Made by a program: the position numbers and the translations under genes. A DNA stretch of 64,000 nucleotides from Kineosporia succinea (GTDB lineage: Bacteria > Actinomycetota > Actinomycetes > Actinomycetales > Kineosporiaceae): positions 372,001 to 436,000 of the forward strand of contig NZ_JAUSQZ010000001.1 in assembly GCF_030811555.1 (NCBI RefSeq). The letters are read 5' to 3'. Below, piece after piece: positions 35,363 through 61,273 of this stretch. Numbering within the stretch: the stretch's first letter is position 1; every line of letters starts with the position of its first letter. Under the pieces are notes generated by a model. It did not search any database. It was given only the letters and a program-made list of their open reading frames with translations, and was not told the DNA's origin.

Positions 35363-35481
35363 GTCCGGCGATGTCCTACTCTCCCACACCGTAACCAGTG
35401 CAGTACCATCGGCGCAGGCAGGCTTAGCTTCCGGGTTCGGAATGAGACCGGGCGTTTCCCTGCCGCTATGATCGCCGTAAC
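35363..35481 (-). rRNA. rrf: 5S ribosomal RNA
   Basis: On the minus strand the sequence begins GTTACGGCGATCATAGCGGC, includes the universally conserved CCGAACCCGGAAGCTAAG region and GATGGTACTGCA, and ends GGACATCGCCGGA pairing with the start (helix I). About 119 nt. It is the last gene of the rRNA operon. Confidence 0.97.
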
Positions 35482-35584
35482 TCTACCGGCACAACCAGCC
35501 ACCCTCAGGGGTGGGCGTGGTCGTTTCCCGTGAACCGCATAGTGGACGTGAACAATCTTTACGCGCTCAACTCAACGAGTGAGT

Positions 35585-40660
<5,076 letters not shown>

Positions 40661-41168
40661 ATAATCTTCTAGGAAGACTTTTAGCGAAGTGTTGCAAGAA
40701 TCCTGACCGAAAGAACCAGACCCGAACCGAACACCTCGACGGGGGTCGAGATATCCGAAGCCTGATCCATCAGCCAAGAAGACCGTCCCAATCGGGACAA
40801 TCATTTGGCATCGGTTGTTCAGATGCACTGTTGAGTTCTCAAGGAGCGGACGCTCACCATCAGACCCTCTTCCGAAGGCCTTTCGGGGCAACCTCTCTAA
40901 CTTACCCGGCTGACCGAGCGGTGTAAACCTTACCAGAAGGTCTTCGCTGCTCCGTCCATCCGGACTCCCAGGCGAACCTCTGGAGGCTCAACCCGCATGG
41001 GTTGAACCTCGGCAAGAAGTTCGGGGAAGTTGACCCGGGACCGGCCACTTGCGTGTCCGTGCCTCCCGCGCTGCCAACACGTAGAACTTTACGGAGATGC
41101 CACCACCAGGTCAAATCGACGTGACATCCACACGCCGATGTGCCCCAAAGGGGCCACACCCCAAGGGA
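40661..41168 (-). promoter_or_regulatory. rRNA promoter and leader; best promoter at 40899-40927
   Basis: The 508-bp gap between 16S and miaB. On the minus strand TTTACA (40927-40922) and TAAGTT (40904-40899) are separated by exactly 17 bp, a good vegetative promoter. The leader then contains CTCCTTGAGAACTCAACAGTGC (only part cited), the antitermination-type element found before actinobacterial 16S genes. A hairpin at 40983-41010 lies upstream of the promoter. No gene is seen. Confidence 0.7.
40983..41010 (-). terminator. Probable miaB terminator hairpin
   Basis: A 12-bp stem with one mismatch (GAGGCTCAACCC / GGGTTGAACCTC, GCAT loop) about 160 bp past the miaB stop and upstream of the rRNA promoter, so it would insulate the two units. 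Confidence 0.5.
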
Positions 41169-50153: not shown

Positions 50154-51043
50154 GCACGCCCAACCTGAGCGTTCTGTACGACGCGCCCGGCCCGAAGGCC
50201 CGCCGCCGGGCCCTGATCGGCAGCGGCGTGGTGGCCGTGGTCCTCCTGGCCGTGCTCTACGTCGTCTACGTCCGGCTCGCCGACCAGGGCCAGTTCGACC
50301 GCGACCGCTGGGCCCCGCTGTTCGACCCGTCCGACGACCTCTTCCAGCCGGTCTGGGAGAACATCTGGTCCGGCTTCCAGAAGACCATGACGGCGGCCGT
50401 GCTGGCGATCGTGCTGTCCATGGTCATCGGCACCGCGTTCGGCGTGGCCCGGGTGATGTCCCGTCCCGCGCCCCGCATCCCGCTGGTCGTGGTGATCGAG
50501 ACGCTGCGTGGCCTGCCCGTCATCGTGCTGATCTACATGGCCTACCAGCTTCTGCCCGACCTGGGCGTGAACTACGACCCGCTGCCGGGCGAGAACGCGC
50601 TCTGGTACGTCGTGGTCGGCCTGACCGCCTACAACTCGGTGGTCATCGCCGAGATCCTGCGCTCGGGGGTGGCCTCCCTCCCCCGCGGCCAGCGGGAGGC
50701 CGGGCTCGTCATCGGGCTGACGCCGCTGCAGACCATGGTGCAGATCCAGCTGCCCCAGGCGTTCCGCACGATGCTGCCGGCGCTGATCAGCCAGATGGTC
50801 GTCATCCTGAAAGACACCTCGCTGGTCACGTTCATCGGTGGCTACGACGAACTGCTCAACACGGCCAAGCGGATCTTCCAGACGGCGAACAACCCGCTGC
50901 AGACCCTGCTGCTCATCGGCCTGATCTTCATCGTCATCAACTTCGCGCTGTCGCAGCTGGCGGTCTTCGCCGAGAAGCGGATGTCGCGCCGCTCGGCCGG
51001 CCGCGGGGTCAACACCCTGCACGTCGATCCCGGCACCACCTGA
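50150..51043 (+). CDS. gluD: Glutamate-type amino-acid ABC transporter permease
   Basis: A 297-residue permease, longer than GluC by an N-terminal cytoplasmic segment and extra helix (VVAVVLLAVLYVVYVRL). Conserved ETLRGLPVIVLIYMAYQLLP and EAA loop REAGLVIGLTPLQTMVQIQLPQAF. Last gene of the operon; followed by a terminator at 51087. Confidence 0.93.
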   Translation: MSTPNLSVLYDAPGPKARRRALIGSGVVAVVLLAVLYVVYVRLADQGQFDRDRWAPLFDPSDDLFQPVWENIWSGFQKTMTAAVLAIVLSMVIGTAFGVARVMSRPAPRIPLVVVIETLRGLPVIVLIYMAYQLLPDLGVNYDPLPGENALWYVVVGLTAYNSVVIAEILRSGVASLPRGQREAGLVIGLTPLQTMVQIQLPQAFRTMLPALISQMVVILKDTSLVTFIGGYDELLNTAKRIFQTANNPLQTLLLIGLIFIVINFALSQLAVFAEKRMSRRSAGRGVNTLHVDPGTT

Positions 51044-51086
51044 CGCCCGGCGGCCTGGGCCGATCGGGTGACTGCCTGAGTGCGTG

Positions 51087-51129
51087 AGGCGCCGGCGCGC
51101 GGGACACTGGGTCCCTCGCACCGGCGCCT
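51087..51129 (+). terminator. gluABCD terminator
   Basis: AGGCGCCGG pairs with CCGGCGCCT (51087-51095 / 51121-51129) with an inner GGGAC/GTCCC stem, 44 bp after the gluD stop. Confidence 0.8.
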
Positions 51130-51159
51130 TCTCATGAGCGCCCCGCGGCAGGAGGAGCC

Positions 51160-51657
51160 ATGACTCTGACCGGCGAAGAAGCCCGGAAGTATCTCGGCCG
51201 AACCGTTTTCGACGCCGACCACGTGCTGGTCGGCCAGGTCGACGGCATCTACTTCAACGACGCCACGGGCACCCCCGACTGGGTCGCCTTCCACACCGAC
51301 TTCTTCGCGGAGCGCGACGCTTTCGTGCCCTCCGCGCAGATCATCCCGTTCGCGGAGGGACTCTCGATCCCGCTCGGCCGCGACGTGATCATGCTGATGC
51401 CCCGCATCAAGCCCCGTGACCACGCGCTCTCCAGCGCCCAGGTGGCCCGGCTGCACGAGTTCTTCGGCACCTTCTCGGGCGAGCACTTCACCTCCGCCCA
51501 CGAGGGCGCGCCGATGTTCCCGCAGCGCAACCTCGTGCCTGACCCGCGCAGTCGGTTCAGCGGCCGCTCGCACGAAACCGCCTTCGGCACCGGGGCTCCC
51601 GGGCCCAACGAGCCGCACGACGTCACGCTCCAGGGCACCGGGAACCACGCTCCCTAG
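51160..51657 (+). CDS. PRC-barrel domain protein (paralog of 59304-59789)
   Basis: A 165-residue protein. Residues ~8-75 look like a PRC-barrel (YLGRTVFDADHVLVGQVDGIYFND, then WVAFHTDFF...AFVPSAQ). The second half has DHALSSAQVARLHEFFGTF and the tail EPHDVTLQGTGNHAP. The protein at 59304 shares the same layout and near-identical C-terminal motifs, so the two are duplicates. Start ATG after GGAGGAG. Its TAG stop overlaps, tail to tail, the stop of the acyl-CoA ligase. The family is common in actinobacteria but its role is unknown. Confidence 0.8.
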   Translation: MTLTGEEARKYLGRTVFDADHVLVGQVDGIYFNDATGTPDWVAFHTDFFAERDAFVPSAQIIPFAEGLSIPLGRDVIMLMPRIKPRDHALSSAQVARLHEFFGTFSGEHFTSAHEGAPMFPQRNLVPDPRSRFSGRSHETAFGTGAPGPNEPHDVTLQGTGNHAP

Positions 51658-53135
51658 AGAAGCCTGAGAGCGTTCTTGTCGGGTTTCCCGGCGGACGTCA
51701 GCGGCACCGCGTCGATCACCGTGAACGCCCGGGGCACGCACACCTCCCCCAGACGCTCCCCCACGATCCGGCGCAGCTCGTCGTCCAGCCCGGCCACCAC
51801 GTCCTCACGCAACACCACGAAGGCCTCGATCGCCTCACCGGTCGCGGGGTCGGGCACCCCCACCACGTAGGCCTGGTCGACGGCCGGGTGGGAGGCCAGG
51901 GCGCGCTCGATCGGGCCCGCGTACTGCACGTTCGCGTTCACGATGATCACGTCGCGGGCCCGGCCGGACAGGTGCAGGAACCCCTCGCCGTCGAGACCGC
52001 CGAGGTCCCGCGTGCGGATCCAGCCGTCGTCGGTGAAGACCTCGGCCTGCTCGCGCACGATGTCGCCCTCGTTGACGTAGCCGATCGTCTGCTGCGGCGT
52101 GCGCACGTAGATCTCACCGTCACGGGTCTCGACGAGGTTGCGCGGCAGCGGGCGTCCCACCGAGGTCAGGGCGTTCTCCGAGGCCAGTGCCTGCGACGGC
52201 GCGAGCATGCTGATCAGCCCGCACTCGGTCTGCCCGTACCCCTGGAACACGATCGGGCCGAGCAACTCGAGGGCCTCGGCGTAACGGCGTGGGTCGAGGG
52301 GCGACCCGGAGACCATCACCCCCTTCAGCGAGCTCACGTCACCCGTGCCCGCCCGCACCACCGACAGCAGCTCGAGCAGCTTCGGCACCGTCACGATGCT
52401 GCCCGTGATGCGGTGCCGCTCGACGATTTCGGCGAAGGAACCGCCGGCCGAGGGGATCACCAGACGGCCCCCGTGCACCAGGCACACGAGCGCGTAGTCG
52501 ACCATCACGACGCTGTTCAGCGTGCCGTGCAGCAGGTACCGGTCGAGCCGGGACCCCAGATCACTCAGGACCTCGTTGTGCAGCTCCGCGCGCGAGGGCC
52601 ACTCCTGCTCGAACGCGGCGTAGGTCTGCGCGGCGCCCTTCGGATTGCCGGTGCTCCCACTGGTGTAGGTCACCCGGGCGACATCCTCCGGCCGGCCCCG
52701 AGGTGTCAGGTCGTCGTCCTCGTCGAGTCCCATAACGTCCGGAGCCCCCAGAGGCCCCAGGTCCACCAGCACCAGATCCGGCCGCGCCTTGACCACGGCC
52801 GAGACGTCGGTCGACGCGTCCACCACCGCCCAGCCGACGCGGTCGTCGAGCAGGTGGGCGAGCTGCTCGGCGGTGAGGCCCGGACGCACCCCGCTCACCC
52901 GCGTCCCCACCAGGTGCACCGCCAGCAGCGCGGCGAAGCCGACCGGGGTGACCCCGGGCATGAACGCGACCCCTGAACCGGGACCCGCCCCGGCCGAGCG
53001 CAGGGCAGCGGTGACTCTCCGCACCAGCCGCAGCATCCCGGCGGCGGTGACCTCGCCCCCGGGCCACTCGAGCACGACGGCGTCGTCGAGCTCTTCCAGG
53101 CGGTTCAGGACGCGGGCAGGAAACCGGTCGCTCAC
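51654..53135 (-). CDS. AMP-binding acyl-CoA/aryl-acid ligase
   Basis: A 493-residue adenylate-forming enzyme. P-loop VTYTSGSTGNPKG (~155-167), GYGQTECGLISM (A5), FLHLSGRARDVIIVNAN (A7/A8 region) and AGKPDKNAL at the C-terminus with the likely catalytic Lys484. It would activate a carboxylic acid with ATP for transfer to CoA or a carrier. GTG 53135 overlaps the response-regulator stop; the longer upstream frame lies over that gene in another phase. Last gene of the six-gene operon. Acid specificity cannot be read. Confidence 0.9.
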   Translation of the reverse strand: MSDRFPARVLNRLEELDDAVVLEWPGGEVTAAGMLRLVRRVTAALRSAGAGPGSGVAFMPGVTPVGFAALLAVHLVGTRVSGVRPGLTAEQLAHLLDDRVGWAVVDASTDVSAVVKARPDLVLVDLGPLGAPDVMGLDEDDDLTPRGRPEDVARVTYTSGSTGNPKGAAQTYAAFEQEWPSRAELHNEVLSDLGSRLDRYLLHGTLNSVVMVDYALVCLVHGGRLVIPSAGGSFAEIVERHRITGSIVTVPKLLELLSVVRAGTGDVSSLKGVMVSGSPLDPRRYAEALELLGPIVFQGYGQTECGLISMLAPSQALASENALTSVGRPLPRNLVETRDGEIYVRTPQQTIGYVNEGDIVREQAEVFTDDGWIRTRDLGGLDGEGFLHLSGRARDVIIVNANVQYAGPIERALASHPAVDQAYVVGVPDPATGEAIEAFVVLREDVVAGLDDELRRIVGERLGEVCVPRAFTVIDAVPLTSAGKPDKNALRLL

Positions 53136-53812
53136 AGCTCTCCCAGTTGATAGCCGAGTTTGTGCACGGTTCGGACAGCGGTGCGGCCCAGCTTGCGGCG
53201 CAGGTAGTAGACGTAGGTGGCGACCAGCGAGGCCGATGTCGCGTCCTCGAAGACGCGGCGCGCCAGCTCTTCCCGCGGGTGCACCGAGGCGGGCCGGTCG
53301 GCCAGGATCCGGATCAGGTGGAACTCGCGGTCGGACAGCTGGATCCGGCCTCCGGCGGGCAGCACGGCGGTGCGGCTGCCGAGGTCGAGCCGGCCCTCCC
53401 CGATGCGCAGCTCCCGGGCCAGCTCCGCCGGCCGACGGCACAGCGCCCGCAGCCGCGCGGTGAGCTCGCCGAACTCGACCGGCCAGGGCAGGTAGTCGTC
53501 GGCCCCGGCGTCCAGGGCCTCCACCAGCTCGGTCGTGGTGCGGCCGGGCGCCAGCAGCAGCGCCCGCCCGGTGACGGCCTGGGCCCGCAGTCGCCGCACC
53601 AGATCCACACCCCCCACCACCGGCAGCGAGCGCGACAGCACCAGGACGTCGTACTCCCGGGTGAGGGCCCGGTGCAGAGCGGTCTGCCCGTCCCGCACAT
53701 GGTCGACGAGGTAGCCCTCGTGACGAAGCACCGGGATCAGACAGGAGAGGGGCTCGGTCTGCCCCTCCGCGAGGAGCAGACGCACAGGCCGTCGACGTTC
53801 GGTGCTTGCCAT
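53132..53812 (-). CDS. Atypical OmpR-type regulator with degenerate receiver domain
   Basis: A 226-residue protein with a receiver fold (1-120) and an OmpR winged helix (LSDREFHLIRILADRPASVH; VRTVHKLGYQLG). The receiver lacks every catalytic position: the acidic pair (normally EDD) reads AEGQ at 15-18, the phosphoacceptor Asp is Ser60 in VLVLSRSLP, and the conserved Lys is Trp110 (DDYLPWPVEF). It cannot be phosphorylated in the normal way and has no partner kinase. Such atypical regulators (JadR1 and RedZ are known examples) often control antibiotic pathways, sometimes by binding end products. It lies inside a six-gene oxidative operon. Confidence 0.88.
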   Translation of the reverse strand: MASTERRRPVRLLLAEGQTEPLSCLIPVLRHEGYLVDHVRDGQTALHRALTREYDVLVLSRSLPVVGGVDLVRRLRAQAVTGRALLLAPGRTTTELVEALDAGADDYLPWPVEFGELTARLRALCRRPAELARELRIGEGRLDLGSRTAVLPAGGRIQLSDREFHLIRILADRPASVHPREELARRVFEDATSASLVATYVYYLRRKLGRTAVRTVHKLGYQLGEL

Positions 53813-53874
53813 CGTTTGAAAGTGACATACGGTACGTAAAGGACAGCATCACGGCACGATAAAAGTTGAAAGTT
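53813..53874 (-). promoter_or_regulatory. Internal control region with two TTGAAAGT repeats
   Basis: The only real gap in the six-gene operon (60 bp, AT-rich for this genome). Two direct copies of TTGAAAGT lie at 53817-53824 and 53867-53874, 50 bp apart (about five turns); the first abuts the regulator start. A related GAAAGTT occurs at 59217-59223 in the operon's upstream region. A candidate internal promoter and binding sites for the atypical regulator. Confidence 0.45.
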
Positions 53875-55129
53875 ACGCTATCTCCTGAGGAATCCGGGCC
53901 GTCGCGCGCCGGGCCTCCAACCGGTCGATCAGCGTCAGCGCGGGCGTCGTCATCAGCGTGGTCACCAGCGCCACGAGCACCAGCGCCGTGAACATCCGGT
54001 CGCTCACGATCCCCGCCTCCAGGCCGACGTTCAGCGCGATCAGCTGCATCAGGCCGCGGGCGTTCATCAGCGCCCCGACCCGCGCGGCCACCAGGGGCGG
54101 CTGCCCGGAGGCCCGGGCGGCGACCCAGCAGGCACCGAACTTGCCGACGACCGCGGTGAGCACGCAGGCCAGCGCGAACAGCAGCACCGCAGGATCACCG
54201 AGCAGCCCGAACTTCGTGTTCAGCCCGGAGTAGGTGAAGAACAACGGCAGGAACAGGCCGGTGCCGAGTGGGGCGACCGCTCCCATCACCTCCTCGCTCT
54301 CGGCCCGGCGCGGCAGCACCAGTCCCACGCAGAAGGCGCCGAACACCGCGTACAGGCCGATCTCGTCGGTGTACCAGGCCACCGCGAGCAGCAGCAGGAG
54401 CACACCGATCAGGCGTTTCTGCGGGTCGAACCGGGTGCGCTCGAACAGCGCCGTGGTGACCCGCCGGCCGCCCAGCCCCAGGCCGACCGCGAACAGGATC
54501 GCACCGCCCACCGTGAGCAGGGCCGGGCCGAACTCGCCGGAGGCCGTGGCCAGCACGAACGCCAGCAGGATCCAGGCCACCACGTCGTCGATCGCCCCGC
54601 TGGCCAGGGCCAGCGAACCGTGGGGAGTGCCGGCGTGCCCGCGCTCGGTGACGATGCGCGCCAGCATCGGGAAGGCGGTGATGGCCAGGGCCACGCCGAC
54701 GAACGCGGCCGAGACCGGGGTCGACACCCCCTCGGCGAACACGTCCACGTGGTCACGGGCCACGAACGTCAGTGCCACCCCCAGCGTGAGTGGGGCGAGA
54801 ATGCCTGCCAGCGAGACGATTCCGGCGGTCCCGGCGATCTTCCCGGGCCGGTGCGCGGCGAACTCGTACCCGGCCGTGAACATGAACAGGATCAGGCCGA
54901 TCTGCCCCAGCACGTAGAGCACCGGACGCAACTGGTCGGGGAACAGCGCGTCCTGCACCCCCGGCAGCAGCAGGCCGAGCAGGCTGGGCCCGAGCAGCAC
55001 GCCGGCCAGCATCTCGCTGACCACCGGCGGCTGACCGGCCTTGCCGAGCAGCCAGGCGGCACCCCGGCAGACCAGCACGATGACGACCATGGCGATGAAG
55101 AGCCGGGGCGCGAGCTCGGACGGGGTCAC
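53873..55129 (-). CDS. Cation/proton antiporter (CPA2 family)
   Basis: A 418-residue membrane protein with about 12-13 helices and no cytosolic RCK domain. Seen: LLGKAGQPPVVSEMLAGVLLGPSLLG (helices 1-2), FAHRPGKIAGTAGI, ALASGAIDDVVAWILLAFV (the DD ion-binding pair) and ARVGALMNARGLMQLIALNVGL. Close to antiporters found in some antibiotic clusters, where they may act in export or pH homeostasis. GTG 55129 overlaps the P450 stop. Confidence 0.9.
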   Translation of the reverse strand: MTPSELAPRLFIAMVVIVLVCRGAAWLLGKAGQPPVVSEMLAGVLLGPSLLGLLLPGVQDALFPDQLRPVLYVLGQIGLILFMFTAGYEFAAHRPGKIAGTAGIVSLAGILAPLTLGVALTFVARDHVDVFAEGVSTPVSAAFVGVALAITAFPMLARIVTERGHAGTPHGSLALASGAIDDVVAWILLAFVLATASGEFGPALLTVGGAILFAVGLGLGGRRVTTALFERTRFDPQKRLIGVLLLLLAVAWYTDEIGLYAVFGAFCVGLVLPRRAESEEVMGAVAPLGTGLFLPLFFTYSGLNTKFGLLGDPAVLLFALACVLTAVVGKFGACWVAARASGQPPLVAARVGALMNARGLMQLIALNVGLEAGIVSDRMFTALVLVALVTTLMTTPALTLIDRLEARRATARIPQEIA

Positions 55130-56496
55130 CGGTTCACCTCCTGCCTCGAGGCCGGGCCGTGTTCCGGATGATCGTCGAAGTAGCTCGCGCAGAGCCGTTT
55201 CCGGCGGGCGTCGGCCACCATGTACGTGCCCAGCACGAGCTGCGTGAGGCTGATGGTCACGTCGTCGACGCGGTCGCGGGCGCGCATCCGGGCCAGGCGC
55301 GGCCTCAGGTCGGCGTCCGGATCGCGCACCAGCAGACAGGGCCCGCGGTTCGGCATCGAGCGGGTGTGCGAGGCCGACGAGGCCAGACCGTGACGGCGCA
55401 GCACCTCCCGGGCCGCCGCGCGCATCATCACCGGGGCCATGCCGCGCGCCGGGCAGGCCCGATTGGCCGTCACCCCGAACGGGATGAAGTGAGCGTCCCT
55501 GCGTTTCAGCGTCTTCCAGCGGTCGGGGCGGAAGTCGTCGTCCGCGGCCGGGCCGGTGCGCTGGAAGGCCAGGTAGTTGAACAGCAGCACCGATCCGGTG
55601 GGCAGGGTGCGGCCGGGCAGCTCGATCGGGGCGGTGGTCACCCGGTGCGCGATGCCGAACAGGGGGTTCACGCGCAGGCCCTCGTCGATGACGCGGTCGA
55701 GAGCGTCGTCGTCGTGCAGGTTCTCCCGCAGGTCACGCTGCACGTCGGGATGCTGCGCGATCACCATCAGCAGGTGCGCCATCGCCTCCGACATCTGCAC
55801 GACCGCGGTGTTGAAGAACGCGCCCTGCAGGTACCAGGCGGTCTCCCGGGTGCTGAACTCGTCGGCGGGCAGGGTGACCAGTGACTCCCCGGCCTCCAGG
55901 CGCTTTTCGAGATAACGGGTCAGGGCGTCGCGGCGGTCCATGTGCCGCAGGCTGCAGCCCTTCAGCGCGGTGATGACGTCGTCGGCGTTACCCACGATCA
56001 GGTCGCGGGCCTCACGCGGGCAGGGTTCGCCGAAGACCAGTTCGTAGTAGGCCTCCGCCCAGATCGGCATCATCAGATCGCGCAGCCTGACCGCGGTGAC
56101 GTCTTCCAGCGGCAGCTCGTCGAGGATCTTCGCGGTCTTCTCGTGCGCCAGTCGCTCCGCGTCGGCCAGCGGGATCGCGAGCGCCTGCCGCGTCGCCCTC
56201 GCCACGGTGCGGTAGCGAGGGCCAGGTTCCAGGTGTTCCTGGTGCATCTGCGGTCCGGGGGCGAGCCAGTACCAGAACAGGTCCGAGAGGCCCGCTCCCA
56301 CACTGCGGCCGTCGGCGGCGGGGTGTGAGTAGAGCGTCTCGAAGTGCTCAGCGCCGATCGCCGGGCCGGGCACCGGGATGCCCTCCTCGCCGTTGATCCA
56401 GGTGAAGATGTTCTCGCGCAGGCGGATCACGGCCGGGGGCAACCACCAGGGGGCGGTCGCGGTCACGGCCGCGGCGGCCAGGGTGCGGCCGATCAT
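55126..56496 (-). CDS. Cytochrome P450 with a non-canonical heme loop
   Basis: A 456-residue P450. A short hydrophobic N-terminus (1-25), helix K ExxR at Glu272-Arg275 (DEGLRVNP), and the heme-ligand Cys348 in FIPFGVTANRACPARG. Relative to the usual FGxGxRxCxG the loop has one extra residue between Phe and Cys and Ala at the Cys+2 position. The I-helix region (QGAFFNTAVVQM) lacks the usual AGxDT, keeping only Asn-Thr. It presumably hydroxylates or couples a product of the operon. ATG 56496 with GGAGG six bases upstream overlaps the FMN oxidase stop; the upstream frame to 57039 is spurious. Confidence 0.88.
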   Translation of the reverse strand: MIGRTLAAAAVTATAPWWLPPAVIRLRENIFTWINGEEGIPVPGPAIGAEHFETLYSHPAADGRSVGAGLSDLFWYWLAPGPQMHQEHLEPGPRYRTVARATRQALAIPLADAERLAHEKTAKILDELPLEDVTAVRLRDLMMPIWAEAYYELVFGEPCPREARDLIVGNADDVITALKGCSLRHMDRRDALTRYLEKRLEAGESLVTLPADEFSTRETAWYLQGAFFNTAVVQMSEAMAHLLMVIAQHPDVQRDLRENLHDDDALDRVIDEGLRVNPLFGIAHRVTTAPIELPGRTLPTGSVLLFNYLAFQRTGPAADDDFRPDRWKTLKRRDAHFIPFGVTANRACPARGMAPVMMRAAAREVLRRHGLASSASHTRSMPNRGPCLLVRDPDADLRPRLARMRARDRVDDVTISLTQLVLGTYMVADARRKRLCASYFDDHPEHGPASRQEVNR

Positions 56497-57584
56497 GGGT
56501 GGCCTCCAGGGTGCTTGGGGACGCGGCGGTGAGTCGGTGGGCCGGTCCAGATGACGTCGGGGTCGAGGTGGTCCGGACGGCTCACCCCGCAGAGTGCGAG
56601 GGCCTCGTCGACCTCGGTGCGCAGCAGGTCGAGCACCTGGCTGACGCCGTCCTGACCGCCGGCGGCGAGCCCCCAGAGCACCGGCCGGCCGATACCGACG
56701 GCGCTCGCCCCGAGGGCCAGGGCCCGCACCACGTCGATGCCGCGGCGCACCCCGCCGTCGAGGATGAGAGGGAACCCGTCCGGCACGGCCTCGGCGATCG
56801 CGGGCAGCGCGTCGATCGTGGCGACCGTCCCGTCGAGCTGACGGCCGCCGTGGTTGGAGACGACGATCCCGGCGACCCCGTGGTCCACGGCCCGGCGCGC
56901 GTCGTCGGGATGCAGCACACCCTTCAGCAGGACCGGCAGCCCGGTGACCGCCCGGAGGCGGTCGACCGACTCCCAGGTGACCGACGCGTCCATCGCGATC
57001 GAGCGCAGGGTGCCCGCGTCGTCCACCATGTTCTCGCACCTCAGGCCCGCCGGGAGATCGTGGAAACCGTTGCGGTGGTCGCGTTCCCGGCGACCGAGAA
57101 CGGGCGAGTCGACCGTGACCACGAGTGCGCCGTACCCGGCCTTCTCGGCCCGCTGCACCAGCGCGGTCGTGAAGTCCCCGTCGGGCTGCAGGTACAGCTG
57201 GAGCCAGCGCTCGGTCTCCTCACCGATCGCCTCGATCCGGGTGGTGGCGGCCATCGACACGATCATCACGGTGTTGGCCGCGGCGACCGCCCGGGCGGTG
57301 GCGATCTCCCCGTCCGGATGGGCGAGCCGGTGGAAGGCGGTCGGGGACACGATCACCGGGGTGTCGAGGTGACGACCGAGCAGGGTGATGCCCGTGCTTC
57401 TGCTCGAGACGTCCCGTAACACCCGTGGCCGCAGCCGGATCCGCTCGAACGCGTCCCGGTTCGACCGGAGCGTGCTCTCGTCACCGGCGGCGCCGGCGAA
57501 GAAGTCCGCGTGCTCCTTGGTCAGGGTGTTCTGAGCGGCCTTCTCGATGTCGTCAAGACTGAACCATCGGGTGTCAGCGGGCAC
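56493..57584 (-). CDS. FMN-dependent alpha-hydroxy-acid oxidase
   Basis: A 363-residue TIM-barrel flavoenzyme of the glycolate/lactate/4-hydroxymandelate oxidase family. Seen: DFFAGAAGDESTLRSN (usually DYY), VIVSPTAFHRLAHPDGE, TVDSPVLGRRERDHRNG, Lys221 in LLKGVL and the catalytic pair His245/Arg248 in VVSNHGGRQLDG. It would oxidise a 2-hydroxy acid to a 2-keto acid. It overlaps the monooxygenase by 11 nt upstream and the P450 by 4 nt downstream. Confidence 0.9.
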   Translation of the reverse strand: MPADTRWFSLDDIEKAAQNTLTKEHADFFAGAAGDESTLRSNRDAFERIRLRPRVLRDVSSRSTGITLLGRHLDTPVIVSPTAFHRLAHPDGEIATARAVAAANTVMIVSMAATTRIEAIGEETERWLQLYLQPDGDFTTALVQRAEKAGYGALVVTVDSPVLGRRERDHRNGFHDLPAGLRCENMVDDAGTLRSIAMDASVTWESVDRLRAVTGLPVLLKGVLHPDDARRAVDHGVAGIVVSNHGGRQLDGTVATIDALPAIAEAVPDGFPLILDGGVRRGIDVVRALALGASAVGIGRPVLWGLAAGGQDGVSQVLDLLRTEVDEALALCGVSRPDHLDPDVIWTGPPTHRRVPKHPGGHP

Positions 57585-59187
57585 CCAGCTGCTCCTTGAC
57601 GAAGGCGATCAGGGGTTCCACGTGCACGGCGGGCCGGTCCCACTCGTTCTCGAGGTTCTCGGCCAGATGATGCGTGCCGGCCAGCTCGCCGTCGCGGTAG
57701 TGCCGCACCACCGGGTGCAAGTAGGCCGCGTCGTGCGCCTGACCAGGGGTGTCCTGGGCGATGCGGGTCACCGTGATGTCGAACGGGTCGACCTTGTCGT
57801 GGTCGGGGCCGTACTCCAGCGTGACCAGGAACGCATGCTCGGGACTGCCGATGCCGCCGTCCTTGAAGTACGCGACCGGTACCTCCTCGAGGTAACTCGC
57901 CCGGCCGTCCTGCGCGTCCTGCCCGCCTTGCAGGCTTTGCACGCCTTGCCCACCTTGCACGGTGACGACGTCGGCCAGCACGTCGAACTGCTGCCAGAGC
58001 GCGGAGGTGCGGTTGATGCGCTCGATGATCTTGCCGGTGATCGCCTCCGGGGTGGCCTCGATGCCTCGCGACGGCCATTCCTGGTTCTCGTACCGCTGGT
58101 CGAGGATCTTGCCCAGAGCCCTCACACCGTAACGGAATCCGTGGATGAACCCGTTCGTGGACTTCTTGAAGTCGCGCACCTGGCTCAGCGTTCCCGCGAT
58201 GTACAGGCCGGGCACGTTGGTCGACTCCCAGGCCGAGGTCTGGTTCGGGAAGCGGTCGTTGATCACCAGCTCGGGCCGGGCGTCGCCCTCGAAGATGCTC
58301 GCGTCGAAACGGAACCCGGTGCAGGCGATCACCCGGTCGTAGGTGAGCTCCTTCTGCACCTCGTCGGCCCGGGAGAAGCTGAACACCACGGTGTAGGTGC
58401 CGTTCTCGTTATTGCGGATGCTCTTGACGGTGCCGTCGAGGATCGCGTTCTGCGACTTGAGCTGGTAGGTGTCGAGGAAGTTGTTGTTGACGGCGCGCAG
58501 GTGACCCACGTAGTGCGTGCGCCAGGCCAGCCGTATCGGGCTCGCACCGGCCACGTGCAGCACGGCGGCGGTCTCGACCAGGTTGTCGGCGGTCTCGAAG
58601 GCCGAGTTGCCCTTGCCCAGGATGAGGACGCGCTGGTCGATGAAGTCGTCGGGGTCGACGGAGACGGTGTCGTAGCGCTCGATCGTGTCGGCGCCCTCGA
58701 CGTCGGGGAAGTTGAGCTTGGACACGCCCGTGGCGACGATGACCGTTCTCGCCGTGAGGGTTTCGTGACGGGTGATGATCTCGAACAGGCCCTGCTTCTT
58801 GACGACGTTCTCCACGCGACTGTCGTAGCTCACGTTCACACCGGTCTTCTCGGCGAAGTCCCGCAGGTAGCGCACGAGTTCGTCGGCGTCCGGGAAGTAC
58901 TTCCGGGTGCGGGCGGTGAAGAGCAGACTCGGGTCGTTGTCGTCGGTGTCGCTGCTGAGGATCGAGTTCCAGTCCATGCGCAGGCTGAACTCGGGATCGC
59001 TCGAGCCGGTGTACCGCTTGTTGACCGAGATCAGCGTCCGGTGCCGGGGGTACGTCTCGAAGAACGTCCCGGGACCCCCGCCCGCCTCGAGCACCCGGTA
59101 GTTGCGGCCGGAGCGCTCCAGACGGGCCGCGAGCTGCAGTCCCGCCGGCCCGGCGCCGATGATCAGGTAGTCGATCGTCCCAGTCAT
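57574..59187 (-). CDS. FAD/NAD(P)-dependent monooxygenase-like flavoprotein
   Basis: A 537-residue two-dinucleotide-domain flavoenzyme. FAD-binding GAGPAG at 11-16 followed by ARLERSGRNYRVLEAGG; second Rossmann motif LILGKGNSAFETA (188-200); ATG and ACTGF signatures typical of flavin monooxygenase and FOXRED2-like proteins. It has an in-frame repeat of Gly/Gln near residues 410-428 (VQGGQGVQSLQGGQDAQDG). First gene of the six-gene operon. No Shine-Dalgarno is seen before ATG 59187, so it may be leaderless. Confidence 0.88.
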   Translation of the reverse strand: MTGTIDYLIIGAGPAGLQLAARLERSGRNYRVLEAGGGPGTFFETYPRHRTLISVNKRYTGSSDPEFSLRMDWNSILSSDTDDNDPSLLFTARTRKYFPDADELVRYLRDFAEKTGVNVSYDSRVENVVKKQGLFEIITRHETLTARTVIVATGVSKLNFPDVEGADTIERYDTVSVDPDDFIDQRVLILGKGNSAFETADNLVETAAVLHVAGASPIRLAWRTHYVGHLRAVNNNFLDTYQLKSQNAILDGTVKSIRNNENGTYTVVFSFSRADEVQKELTYDRVIACTGFRFDASIFEGDARPELVINDRFPNQTSAWESTNVPGLYIAGTLSQVRDFKKSTNGFIHGFRYGVRALGKILDQRYENQEWPSRGIEATPEAITGKIIERINRTSALWQQFDVLADVVTVQGGQGVQSLQGGQDAQDGRASYLEEVPVAYFKDGGIGSPEHAFLVTLEYGPDHDKVDPFDITVTRIAQDTPGQAHDAAYLHPVVRHYRDGELAGTHHLAENLENEWDRPAVHVEPLIAFVKEQLGAR

Positions 59188-59303
59188 GGCGGTGACGGTA
59201 GGTCGGTGATTTCAGAGAAAGTTCAACGTCCGGGCGCTCTCGAGTGGTGTTCACGGCCGGTCGCGTGAGACTGGCCAGCACGTGCACGACCCGAGGAGGA
59301 GAC

Positions 59304-59789
59304 GTGGATCTGAAGCCCGAAGAGGCCCGTGACCTGGTGGGCCGTACCCTTCACGACGTGCGGGGCGAGCGCCTCGGTGACGTGAGCGGCGTGTACTTCA
59401 ACGACGCCGGCCATGATGCGGAATGGCTTTCGGTCACGGACGGGGAGAACGTCTCGTTCGTCCCGGCCTCCGCCCTGACCTCCGACGCCTCCGACCAGCT
59501 CTCCCTGACGTTCGACCGGGGCATGCTCGACAACCAGCCGAAGATCGAGCCGCACGACGGCGCGCTGTCGAACGCCCAGGTGGCGCGGCTGCACGAGTTC
59601 TTCCACACGTTCGACGGGCGCACCCGGATCACGAGCGCGACCTCGGGGGCGGCGGCCGACCCGTCGGCCGACCCGGCCGAGACGCCCTTCACCGGGAGGG
59701 CACACGAGGCGGTGTTCGGCACGGGCACCCCGGCGCCGGGTGAGCCGCACGACGTGACCCTGCAGGGGAACGGCAATTTCGCACCGTAG
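59304..59789 (+). CDS. PRC-barrel domain protein (paralog of 51160-51657)
   Basis: A 161-residue protein starting at GTG 59304 with GAGGAGGA upstream. N-terminal PRC-barrel (LVGRTLHDVRGERLGDVSGVYFND), then LSNAQVARLHEFFHTF and the C-terminal EPHDVTLQGNGNFAP, all matching the protein at 51160. It is divergent from the six-gene operon, sharing a 116-bp control region with it. Function unknown; co-location with that operon may be meaningful or coincidental. Confidence 0.78.
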   Translation: MDLKPEEARDLVGRTLHDVRGERLGDVSGVYFNDAGHDAEWLSVTDGENVSFVPASALTSDASDQLSLTFDRGMLDNQPKIEPHDGALSNAQVARLHEFFHTFDGRTRITSATSGAAADPSADPAETPFTGRAHEAVFGTGTPAPGEPHDVTLQGNGNFAP

Positions 59790-59826
59790 GGGCGCGCCGA
59801 TGACGGACGCGTGGCCCGGCGCCGCC

Positions 59827-59857
59827 TGAACCCGGCCCTTGGTTCGGGCCGGGTTCA
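59827..59857 (+). terminator. Terminator after the second PRC-barrel gene
   Basis: A perfect 12-bp stem TGAACCCGGCCC / GGGCCGGGTTCA around a 7-nt loop, 38 bp after the stop codon, between it and the convergent recX gene. Confidence 0.85.
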
Positions 59858-59900
59858 CCTCGGAACCGGCCGACCCGGCGGTGCCGTTTCGGTCGAGGCG

Positions 59901-60018
59901 GGCGTCAGTCGAGGTCGGCGGCAGGTCTAGGCGGGCGGCAGGTCGAGACAGGCGCCAGGTCCGGGCAGGCGCCAGGTCCGGGCAGGCGCCAGGTCCGGGC
60001 AGGCGCCAGGTCTGGGCA
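59901..60018. repeat. 17-bp tandem repeats and duplicated recX end
   Basis: Four consecutive 17-bp units GGCGCCAGGTCCGGGCA occupy 59951-60018 (the last with one change). The 18-bp sequence GGCGTCAGTCGAGGTCGG at 60019-60036, which contains the recX stop, is repeated exactly at 59901-59918, so the end of recX has been duplicated together with the array. Confidence 0.85.
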
Positions 60019-60022
60019 GGCG

Positions 60023-61273
60023 TCAGTCGAGGTCGGGGTGGTCCAGGGCCTCGGCGTCGAGGTCGGCGAGTTCTTCCCGGATGGCCTGGTAGGCGATGCC
60101 GGAGCTGTAGCCCTTGCGGGCGAGCATCCCGGCGAGGCGGCGGAGGCGGCGTTCCGGGTCGTCTTTCATCATGCTGCGGGCCTTCTTGCGCACCAGGTCG
60201 CGGGCGGTGGCGAGTTCGTCGTCGGAGCTGAGCTGGTCGACGGCCTCACGGACCGTCTCGTCGGCCACGCCCTTCTGCCGCAGCTCGTAGGCCAGGGCAC
60301 GCTTGGCCAGGCCCTTGCCCGAGTGCCGGGTCTCGACGTACTGCTGGGAGAACGCCGCGTCGTCGACCAGGTCGACCTCTTCGAACCGGTCGAGCACGGC
60401 GGACGCCACGTCGTCGGGAATCTCCTTCTGCGCCAGCACTTTCGCCAGCTGCGAGCGGGTGCGGGCACCGGCATGCAGCTGCCTCAGCAGGATGTCGCGG
60501 GCTTCCTGCTCGGGATCGGCGGGCGGACGGGGCCGCTCCCGGCCGGCCTCGCGACCAGCCCTACCGCTCTCGTCGTCACCCTCAGAGGTCTCGAGCCCGG
60601 GGTTCTCCGCGTCGTCGGCATCACGTCGCTCCGACCTCGGACGCCGGCGCAGCGAATTGCCCGACCTCCCCCACGGCGAATCCCCCGCCTCACGACGTTG
60701 CCGGTTCAGCCCTCGGGGCTTACGGGCGCCGGGCGTGCTCTCACCGGGGGACGCGACCTCTTCACGGGCGGTTCGGCCCACGCGGGATTTCGCGGTGGCC
60801 GGCCCCCAGCCGGGAGTCGACCACTGCGGCTGGACCTCGCCGTTCCCGGCACCCGGATCGGTGTCCGGGAGAACGTCGGCACCGCTACCGGTCGCGCGAC
60901 GGCTCTCGGCCCTGCGGCTCTCGGCCCCGCGACTCTCGGCCCCGCGACGGCCACTGGCACCGTGACGGTTGCCGCCATCGTCGCTGTCTTCGGCAGCGCC
61001 CTGACCGGCCCGCCACTCGGCTTCTTTCTGGGCGATCATGTCGCGCAGATCGTGCTGGTTCAGCCGGGTGCCGTCGAGGCTCACGACAGCGCCCGCGTCT
61101 GACGCAGCGTCACCGGGACTGCTCTTGCCTACCTTGCGTTTTCGCGCCGGGCGACTGTCGTCGGATGCACCGGCTGCACCGCTGCCCCGTCCGGAAAAAA
61201 GATCGTGGACAGACGCCAGCCCCGGGGTGCCCCCCTCCGGGACCCCCCGGGGCCGTCGCTGGTCTTCGGTCAT
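60023..61273 (-). CDS. recX: RecX regulatory protein with a very long N-terminal extension
   Basis: A 416-residue protein, against 150-270 for usual RecX. The RecX domain is in the last ~160 residues: ARDILLRQLHAGARTRSQL, DDAAFSQQYVETRHSGKGLAKRAL, ELRQKGVADETVREAV and RKGYSSGIAYQAIREEL. Residues 1-250 are low-complexity (Arg/Gly/Glu/Ser-rich, with RRGAESRGAESRRAESRRA) and probably disordered. RecX limits RecA filament growth. ATG 61273 (MTEDQRR) is favoured; lies 110 bp downstream of recA. Confidence 0.92.
   Translation of the reverse strand: MTEDQRRPRGVPEGGTPGLASVHDLFSGRGSGAAGASDDSRPARKRKVGKSSPGDAASDAGAVVSLDGTRLNQHDLRDMIAQKEAEWRAGQGAAEDSDDGGNRHGASGRRGAESRGAESRRAESRRATGSGADVLPDTDPGAGNGEVQPQWSTPGWGPATAKSRVGRTAREEVASPGESTPGARKPRGLNRQRREAGDSPWGRSGNSLRRRPRSERRDADDAENPGLETSEGDDESGRAGREAGRERPRPPADPEQEARDILLRQLHAGARTRSQLAKVLAQKEIPDDVASAVLDRFEEVDLVDDAAFSQQYVETRHSGKGLAKRALAYELRQKGVADETVREAVDQLSSDDELATARDLVRKKARSMMKDDPERRLRRLAGMLARKGYSSGIAYQAIREELADLDAEALDHPDLD

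Follow-up and report, generated by a model that had tools for sequence, protein, structure and literature searches.

The window analysed here is a stretch of 64,000 nucleotides from Kineosporia succinea (G000:C1:372001-436000, in a genome of one 8.07-Mb contig), and its minus strand carries, from 59187 to 51654, an operon of six genes arranged head to tail. The first gene in the direction of transcription encodes a class-B-type FAD/NADPH flavoprotein of 537 residues, here called the flavin monooxygenase (FMO; 57574..59187; Pfam Pyr_redox_3, E 4e-50; structure model with a pLDDT of 84.5). It is followed by an FMN-dependent enzyme of the 2-hydroxy-acid oxidase/dehydrogenase family (56493..57584; 363 residues, GTG start; FMN_dh, E 4e-129), a P450 (55126..56496; 456 residues, ATG start; p450; model pLDDT 90.1), a CPA2-type cation/H+ antiporter (53873..55129; 418 residues, GTG start; Na_H_Exchanger, E 2e-53), an OmpR-family regulator with a pseudo-receiver (53132..53812; ATG start; Response_reg and Trans_reg_C) and an ANL (AMP-forming) acyl/aryl ligase (51654..53135; 493 residues, GTG start; AMP-binding and AMP-binding_C). 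The frames are joined, in the same order, by an 11-nt overlap (FMO/oxidase), two overlaps of 4 nt (oxidase/P450 and P450/antiporter), a 60-nt gap upstream of the regulator (53813..53872) and a further 4-nt overlap (regulator/ligase). An earlier reading of the sequence alone (the original prediction) had described this gene order, the overlaps and the gap, which the coordinates of the open reading frames confirm; each of its six protein types is backed by a Pfam match, and its remark that no polyketide synthase or non-ribosomal peptide synthetase is present holds among the six genes. Compared with its relatives, the locus reads as a two-component operon that has turned into a pseudo-receiver operon.

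A constant trio with optional partners

The P450 was sought in 296 genomes of the class, its own included, and is present in 12, the other 11 copies being 54-66% identical to it. In the ~20 kb fetched round each of these 11 loci (7 kb for one), the FMO, oxidase and ligase stand beside the P450 in 11/11, the regulator in 9/11 and the antiporter in 8/11, and a histidine kinase gene lies directly downstream of the regulator in 9/11. In one of these loci, L026, the contig is 7 kb long, the ligase gene is partial and the frames of the FMO and the oxidase are broken. In a further sample, drawn evenly from the phylum, the P450 is present in 6 of 396 genomes, again with its own included, and a scan of named genomes found P450 relatives in 336 stretches; the distribution of this P450 is widespread but sparse. 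The trio of FMO, oxidase and P450 was checked in the best 80 of the 336, so the frequencies given here describe near relatives: the oxidase lies near the P450 in 80/80 and the FMO in 79/80. With the 12 from the class genomes these make a set of 92 loci (L016-L027 and L029-L108), recruited by the P450 with the exception of L027, which was recruited by the FMO. Searched by tblastn, the 92 loci yield the oxidase in 92, the FMO in 91 (not in L106) and the P450 in 92 (by construction except in L027), followed by the CPA2 antiporter (73), the response regulator (75), the histidine kinase (72), a nearby ligase (62), an aromatic ammonia lyase (45), a sulfotransferase (12), DUF6282 (6) and an MFS gene (6). 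Beyond eight main families, each in 45-90 loci, no gene family occurs in more than 11. The constant unit is FMO-oxidase-P450; the antiporter, the ligase, the two-component pair, a second FMO and a tyrosine-ammonia-lyase-like gene are optional around it.

Gene order was taken from a gene-called table of 92 rows (the window, L016-L087, L089-L092 and L094-L108; L028 is a remnant), made with a caller trained on the codons of the window, which lost L088 and L093 and missed some genes, such as the L107 oxidase, recovered separately. By these gene calls, the oxidase frame runs into the P450 frame in 79 of 86 same-strand pairs, and the FMO frame into the oxidase frame in 37 of 87. By this comparison the operon is co-inherited and its grouping more than chance, the trio being inherited together across actinomycetes. 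The original prediction had proposed a search of this kind and had named homologues that are never co-located as what would refute it; the opposite is found, since the homologues are strongly co-located. As regards the six-gene set as a unit, the FMO-oxidase-P450 part proved constant, whereas the full six, with ligase and antiporter, did not. The trio also occurs in single assemblies assigned to Candidatus Sulfopaludibacter (L088; Acidobacteria-type), Myxococcales (L093), Melainabacteria (L102) and Paraburkholderia (L107), of which L088, L093 and L102 look metagenome-derived and may be misbinned.

The cluster exists in two forms. The second FMO and the ammonia lyase travel together, both being found in 42 of the 92 gene-called rows, the lyase alone in three, two FMOs alone in one and neither in 46, and 39 of 40 non-core FMOs fall in one clade (support 1.0). 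The lyase matches Lyase_aromatic (two members scanned), and the nearest solved structure is 2o6y, deposited as 'Putative histidine ammonia-lyase', which we take to be the Rhodobacter tyrosine ammonia-lyase (TAL). All 43 aligned members of at least 450 residues have the Ala-Ser-Gly of the methylidene-imidazolone (MIO) cofactor together with a His-Leu pair, which in ammonia lyases is tyrosine-selective; the Rhodobacter enzyme has the same pair. The window cluster contains no such lyase, and no His-Leu-type lyase was found in the host genome, where three lyase homologues of 27-38% identity carry, by eye, Ser-His at the selectivity pair. The one MFS member scanned scores 117 of 419 bits, below the cut-off, against an aromatic-acid/H+ symport model.

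The regulator, its missing kinase and its candidate operator

Alignment of the cluster enzymes and regulators was filtered by length, keeping 88 P450s, 88 oxidases, 78 response regulators, 70 histidine kinases, 43 ammonia lyases and 125 FMOs. Dropping the 46739 gene of the window and one regulator in L028 leaves 76 response regulators near a P450, although in L065, which has two, one may be part of a different system. In the window regulator the acidic pair has changed from DD to GQ, the phospho-acceptor Asp to Ser, the conserved Thr to Ala, the conserved Lys to Trp and the Phe at K+2 to Val. The phospho-acceptor is kept in 74/76 and replaced by Ser only in the window and in L027, the locus of the congener G298; the Lys is likewise kept in 74/76, the K+2 Phe in 75/76 with Val in the window, and the Thr is Ala only in the window, L027 and L068 and Ser in three more. 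The L027 regulator retains the acidic pair and has Ser, Ala and Arg at the Asp, Thr and Lys positions. The relatives have the kinase gene after the regulator gene; where the two are neighbours on one strand, the overlap is exactly 4 nt in 47 of 71 cases (own gene calls). A kinase is present in 71 of the 76 gene-called rows with a response regulator, the exceptions being the window, L027, L068, L028 (which has an unrelated regulator only) and L066, whose kinase was recovered by tblastn; by tblastn, the loci with a regulator and no kinase are L027, L068 and L102, the last at a contig end. In the window and in L027 the ligase occupies the slot held by the kinase in most relatives. No orthologue of the kinase was found elsewhere in the host genome, where there are 20 kinase-core matches at E <=1e-10 and the best is 37% identical over the catalytic core only (residues 152-408).

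In a tree of the enzymes the window and L027 are joined (support 1.0) as sister to a clade of 43 loci, and because 42 of these 43 have the kinase, the simplest reading is that it was lost on the window/L027 branch. The regulator of L068, from Phycicoccus (L068:11415-12074), is also without a kinase; it keeps the Asp, the Lys and the acidic pair and has Ala for Thr, and may represent the same change at an earlier stage, reached independently. A single ancestral loss common to L068 and the window pair was considered and set aside: the regulator tree groups them (0.947), whereas the enzyme tree places L068 with Cellulomonas (0.996), a conflict that makes long-branch attraction in the regulator tree likely, and two losses are therefore assumed. 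The window regulator thus has the residue losses that mark a pseudo-receiver and, as is common in such proteins and not required of them, is an orphan without an adjacent partner kinase. The kinase independence proposed for it in the original prediction gains support from this comparison with kinase-bearing orthologues.

The two domains of the regulator have also changed at unusual relative rates. Between the window and L027, the proportion of nonsynonymous differences (pN) is 0.184 in the receiver and 0.079 in the DNA-binding domain, a ratio of 2.33. In 848 other pairs of similar divergence, drawn from 71 sequences and not independent of one another, the median pN is 0.109 for the receiver, which is thus the faster in the window-L027 pair, and 0.143 for the DNA-binding domain, there the slower; their ratio has a median of 0.79 and reaches 1.72 at most. 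In a comparison not matched for divergence, 0 of 1943 pairs reach the window-L027 ratio. Measured against all other loci, the ratio is 1.19 for the window, 0.94 for L027 and 0.76 for other pairs, and the shift between domains is therefore strongest in the window.

Upstream of the FMO gene lies a candidate operator, GTTGAACTTTCTCTGAAATC (59208..59227, minus strand), with TGA half-sites 11 bp apart. The direct repeat itself spans 59226-59212 and stands 11 bp upstream of a TACCGT (59200-59195, minus strand) that we read as a -10-like element and that ends 7 bp before the FMO ATG. The pattern YTGA-N7-YTGA, of period 11, occurs in 51 of 86 core-FMO leaders, those of the window and L027 included, compared with no more than 14 of 86 for any other period (6-10 and 12-21) and 0.4 for period 11 in random 180-bp pieces of the same loci. 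A first version of the motif, TCTC[TA]GA, had been found in 31 of 72 leaders, where shuffles would give 1.0, and a stricter version of the repeat in 34 of 86; the spacing control is the main guard here, the pattern having been defined on the same, related leaders. The leader of L068 is without the repeat. A period of 11 bp suits an OmpR-type dimer, and, with the repeat 11 bp before the -10-like element, the regulator would sit as a direct activator at the FMO promoter. A second element, ACTTTC, has three copies in 51001-60300, all on the operon strand and all in two upstream regions: one before the FMO (59217-59222) and two inside or at the edge of the 60-nt gap (53873-53868 and 53823-53818). 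L027 has ACTTTC at the same three places, plus a fourth on the opposite strand. With five bases between it and the start codon of the regulator, the copy at 53823-53818 may be an autoregulatory site.

The enzymes, the site and its history

The oxidase has an FMN_dh domain in which the catalytic His, Arg, Lys and Asp, as we assign their roles, are all present; the SNHGGRQ motif, Lys221 and Asp159 are invariant in 88/88. In the DYY sequence, which we take to be an active-site motif with a role for its first Tyr, that residue is Phe in 50 of 88 and Tyr in 38. The P450 retains the heme-ligand Cys (88/88) and the Arg (88/88) and Glu (86/88) of ExxR, and its model predicts a long N-terminal helix and a 32-residue helix (216-247); a C-terminal extension is conserved. 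Near the centre of helix 216-247 lies the motif GAFFNT, in which the position expected to hold the I-helix acid, as placed by the motif and its place in the predicted helix, is Asn in 85 of 88 and Thr in three. The Cys loop, PFGVxANRxCPA, is one residue longer than the canonical loop (by comparison with CYP11B2), and the enzyme seems to be an atypical P450 without the usual I-helix acid. A crude pattern search for ferredoxin genes in the 92 loci gave four matches, none convincing by eye. In L025 and L026 the P450 is missing ~20 residues before the Cys loop, in the meander region, and keeps the other motifs.

In fold the FMO comes closest to YpdA and bacterial FMOs, the best rows covering ~370-390 columns; the C-terminal part, ~165 residues, is conserved and has no match in those rows. 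Assignment as YpdA or ArsO was rejected, the scores being far below the NCBIfam cut-offs, and a likeness to FOXRED2 is possible. The antiporter has the Na_H_Exchanger domain and scores 126 of 238 bits, below the cut-off, against TIGR00932. The ligase has AMP-binding and C-terminal domains with the sequences TSGSTG and GKPDK, which we take to be motifs of ANL ligases; feruloyl and fatty acyl CoA ligases are among the enzymes it resembles, and its best solved relative is 6sq8/6h1b (196 bits), deposited as 'Fatty acid CoA ligase'.

The site of the cluster is bracketed by two PRC-barrel-type genes, at 51160-51657 and 59244-59789. The first (plus strand), for which alone the PRC assignment comes from Pfam, is convergent with the ligase gene and overlaps it by 4 nt. 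Beyond the pair, the site is flanked by what we take to be recX/recA and, at the opposite end, gluABCD-like transporter genes, and between recX and the right-hand PRC-barrel-type gene lies a 17-bp tandem repeat of eight copies (59891-60026). Elsewhere in the window, the low-GC stretch at 35363-40661 is a minus-strand rRNA operon (16S, 23S and 5S), away from the cluster and the only match in an Rfam scan of the window; a tRNA search of the window found none.

The PRC-barrel-type pair marks the same site in six of the six congeneric genomes compared (G000, that of the window, and G296-G300), whether or not the cluster is present. The cluster is present in G000 and G298, G297 and G300 carry different FMO and ligase fragments, and in G296 and G299 no cluster gene was detected. 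Probably the common ancestor of four or more of the congeners had the cluster and it has been lost more than once, and with two of six genomes keeping it and two of six holding remnants, the locus is, on this comparison, decaying in the genus. The antiporter gene of G298 (L027:4844-6111) is split over two frames, by a real break or a draft error. Between G000 and G298 the pN/pS (nonsynonymous to synonymous) ratios of the operon genes are 0.31-0.44, compared with 0.45 for the flanking PRC gene and 0.03 for recA; the operon genes are therefore constrained, but to a degree similar to the flanking PRC gene and far less than recA.

Mechanism, alternatives and relation to known systems

On balance we favour the view that this lineage has its own version of a widespread accessory cluster, with a core of FMO, FMN oxidase and atypical P450, and that the operon combines pseudo-receiver control with oxidative chemistry on an aromatic acid. 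Comparison supports the regulatory part, and the chemistry is what we infer. The regulator would bind the 11-bp repeat as a phosphorylation-independent dimer, and the output of the operon would be set by the amount of regulator or by a ligand bound to it. More tentatively, the ligase would activate an aromatic (hydroxyphenyl) acid, the FMO and the FMN oxidase would turn it by oxidation into a 2-oxo-type intermediate, releasing H2O2, and the P450, without a proton-relay acid, would finish the product by a rearrangement, a dehydration or a peroxide-driven step and not by classical O2 activation, while the antiporter would provide ion or pH tolerance. The original prediction had put forward a 2-hydroxy acid or an aryl acid as the substrate, and export or tolerance of the product, both of which are putative assignments. 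An aromatic acid is our best guess for the origin of the product because the lyase of the relatives is a Lyase_aromatic with the TAL-type His-Leu pair, and because the MFS gene, in six loci, is weakly symporter-like in one. A bolder idea, which we hold to be distinctly improbable, is that oxidase and P450 form a natural peroxide-fed pair, in which the H2O2 made by the oxidase from a 2-hydroxy acid is, or makes, the oxidant of the P450, and which is switched by a receiver that is losing phosphorylation control; such a pairing is, to our knowledge, familiar only as an engineered trick.

Several observations weigh against the favoured view. The receiver argument rests on two genomes, and the receiver pN/pS of 0.58 is equalled or exceeded by 517 of the 1943 other pairs (unmatched for divergence), so the signal is the contrast with a slow DNA-binding domain more than the speed of the receiver. 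The repeat pattern was chosen after the leaders had been seen, 35 of 86 leaders are without it, and the stricter version missed the window, which the looser version includes. The I-helix assignment is by motif and position, in a region that alignments to solved P450s do not cover reliably. With no His-Leu-type lyase in the host genome, an aryl-acid substrate is no more than a candidate for this host, and the antiporter in two frames in G298 together with the two congeners that hold remnants means that the cluster may be on its way out.

That last point leads to the alternative in which the regulator gene and the operon are decaying and the receiver residues were lost without selection. The remnants in G297 and G300, the absence of cluster genes from G296 and G299, the split antiporter frame of G298 and the receiver pN/pS would all fit; yet the six frames of the window are all open, the pN/pS of the operon genes lies near that of the flanking PRC gene (far above recA), the DNA-binding domain has changed more slowly than in other pairs and the operator repeat is kept, and we consider decay unlikely as the explanation. 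Still less can be said for a regulator that answers a kinase encoded elsewhere, through a non-phosphoryl contact or another residue. The genome has kinase cores enough to supply one, but the best resembles the lost kinase in its catalytic core only and the regulator has lost the Asp, the Thr, the Lys and both acidic residues, making this very improbable.

The chemistry admits alternatives of its own. In a catabolic cluster, for the uptake or detoxification of plant hydroxycinnamates or similar acids, the regulator would be a plain housekeeping activator. The replacement of the antiporter by an MFS gene in some loci (weakly like an aromatic-acid/H+ symporter in the one scanned), the likeness of the ligase to feruloyl and fatty acyl CoA ligases, and the absence of an assembly-line enzyme from the eight main recurring families are what such a cluster might show. 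However, ring-cleavage and beta-oxidation enzymes are not among the constant parts (the families beyond the eight, the rarer of them partly annotated, being confined to at most 11 loci), and a tyrosine-type ammonia lyase in 45/92 loci points to making the acid rather than eating it; we regard this alternative as rather doubtful. Prospects are close to even that the P450 is an ordinary monooxygenase fed by ferredoxins encoded elsewhere and that its missing acid is mechanistically meaningless. Actinomycete P450s often have no local redox partner. In a Foldseek search the model falls among many P450s; CYP175A1, CYP51 and CYP17A1 rank higher than the CYP152 peroxygenases, and the ranking does not single out a subtype. 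Against an ordinary monooxygenase stands the finding that 88/88 aligned members have Asn or Thr where the acid is presumed, together with a lengthened Cys loop (a one-residue insertion seen against CYP11B2).

Taken as a pseudo-receiver operon, the locus is of wider significance because one cluster presents three receiver states: canonical with a kinase in most relatives examined, kinase-less with the Thr lost in L068, and fully degenerate in the window, with G298 between these. The window and G298 keep the promoter repeat of the relatives, and L068 is without it. Such a series would let switches of this kind be compared, in nature, before and after they came to work without their customary signal, and the FMO-oxidase-P450 unit would be a tractable source of new oxidative chemistry. 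The original prediction knew of no described pathway with this set of genes, and none was found in the open-access literature, among the matches listed; a description elsewhere is possible. A paper on naringenin in S. clavuligerus, the one match for TAL, hydroxymandelate oxidase, FMO and P450 in actinobacteria, appears not to describe this cluster; a review of cascades was the one match that pairs a peroxygenase with a hydroxy acid oxidase, and further matches listed were judged unrelated. Pseudo-receivers and the enzyme families are already known; it is the combination and the before-and-after series that were not met with among those matches.

Among known enzymes, HAO1, glycolate oxidase, 4-hydroxymandelate oxidase and lactate oxidase share with the window oxidase the fold family and the catalytic motif, at ~210-300 bits to the single-domain members. 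It differs from them in scoring below the cut-off of all six listed NCBIfam models (259 of 645 bits for lactate oxidase), in adjoining a P450 in 92/92 loci of the cluster and in the frequent Phe of its DYY motif. The CYP152 fatty-acid peroxygenases and the CYP74 enzymes are without the normal I-helix acid. CYP152 appears in the fold list of the window P450 at ranks 23, 34 and 47-50, with 11-15% identity, and the Asn-Thr and NRxCPA motifs of the cluster P450 are not known from CYP152 or CYP74. The solved ligase relative 6sq8/6h1b is presumably the amide-bond synthetase McbA, and the cluster ligase could form CoA esters or amides.

Atypical response regulators with pseudo-receivers are represented, in a 2025 review, by JadR1, RedZ, HP1043 and GlnR, two of which, JadR1 and RedZ, are stated to be inhibited by the end products of their own pathways; a K+2 change in the direction of Phe to Val is linked there to active conformations, and how pseudo-receivers are activated or inactivated is said to 'remain a mystery' (PMC12632262). 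What the window regulator has in common with these four, as described there, is an OmpR-type architecture minus the active-site residues and the want of a partner kinase. The likeness is drawn from descriptions. What differs is the neighbourhood: the window cluster has orthologues in which a canonical receiver and an adjacent kinase stand beside the same enzymes, and a third kinase-less regulator, that of L068, which keeps the Asp and Lys and has lost the Thr.

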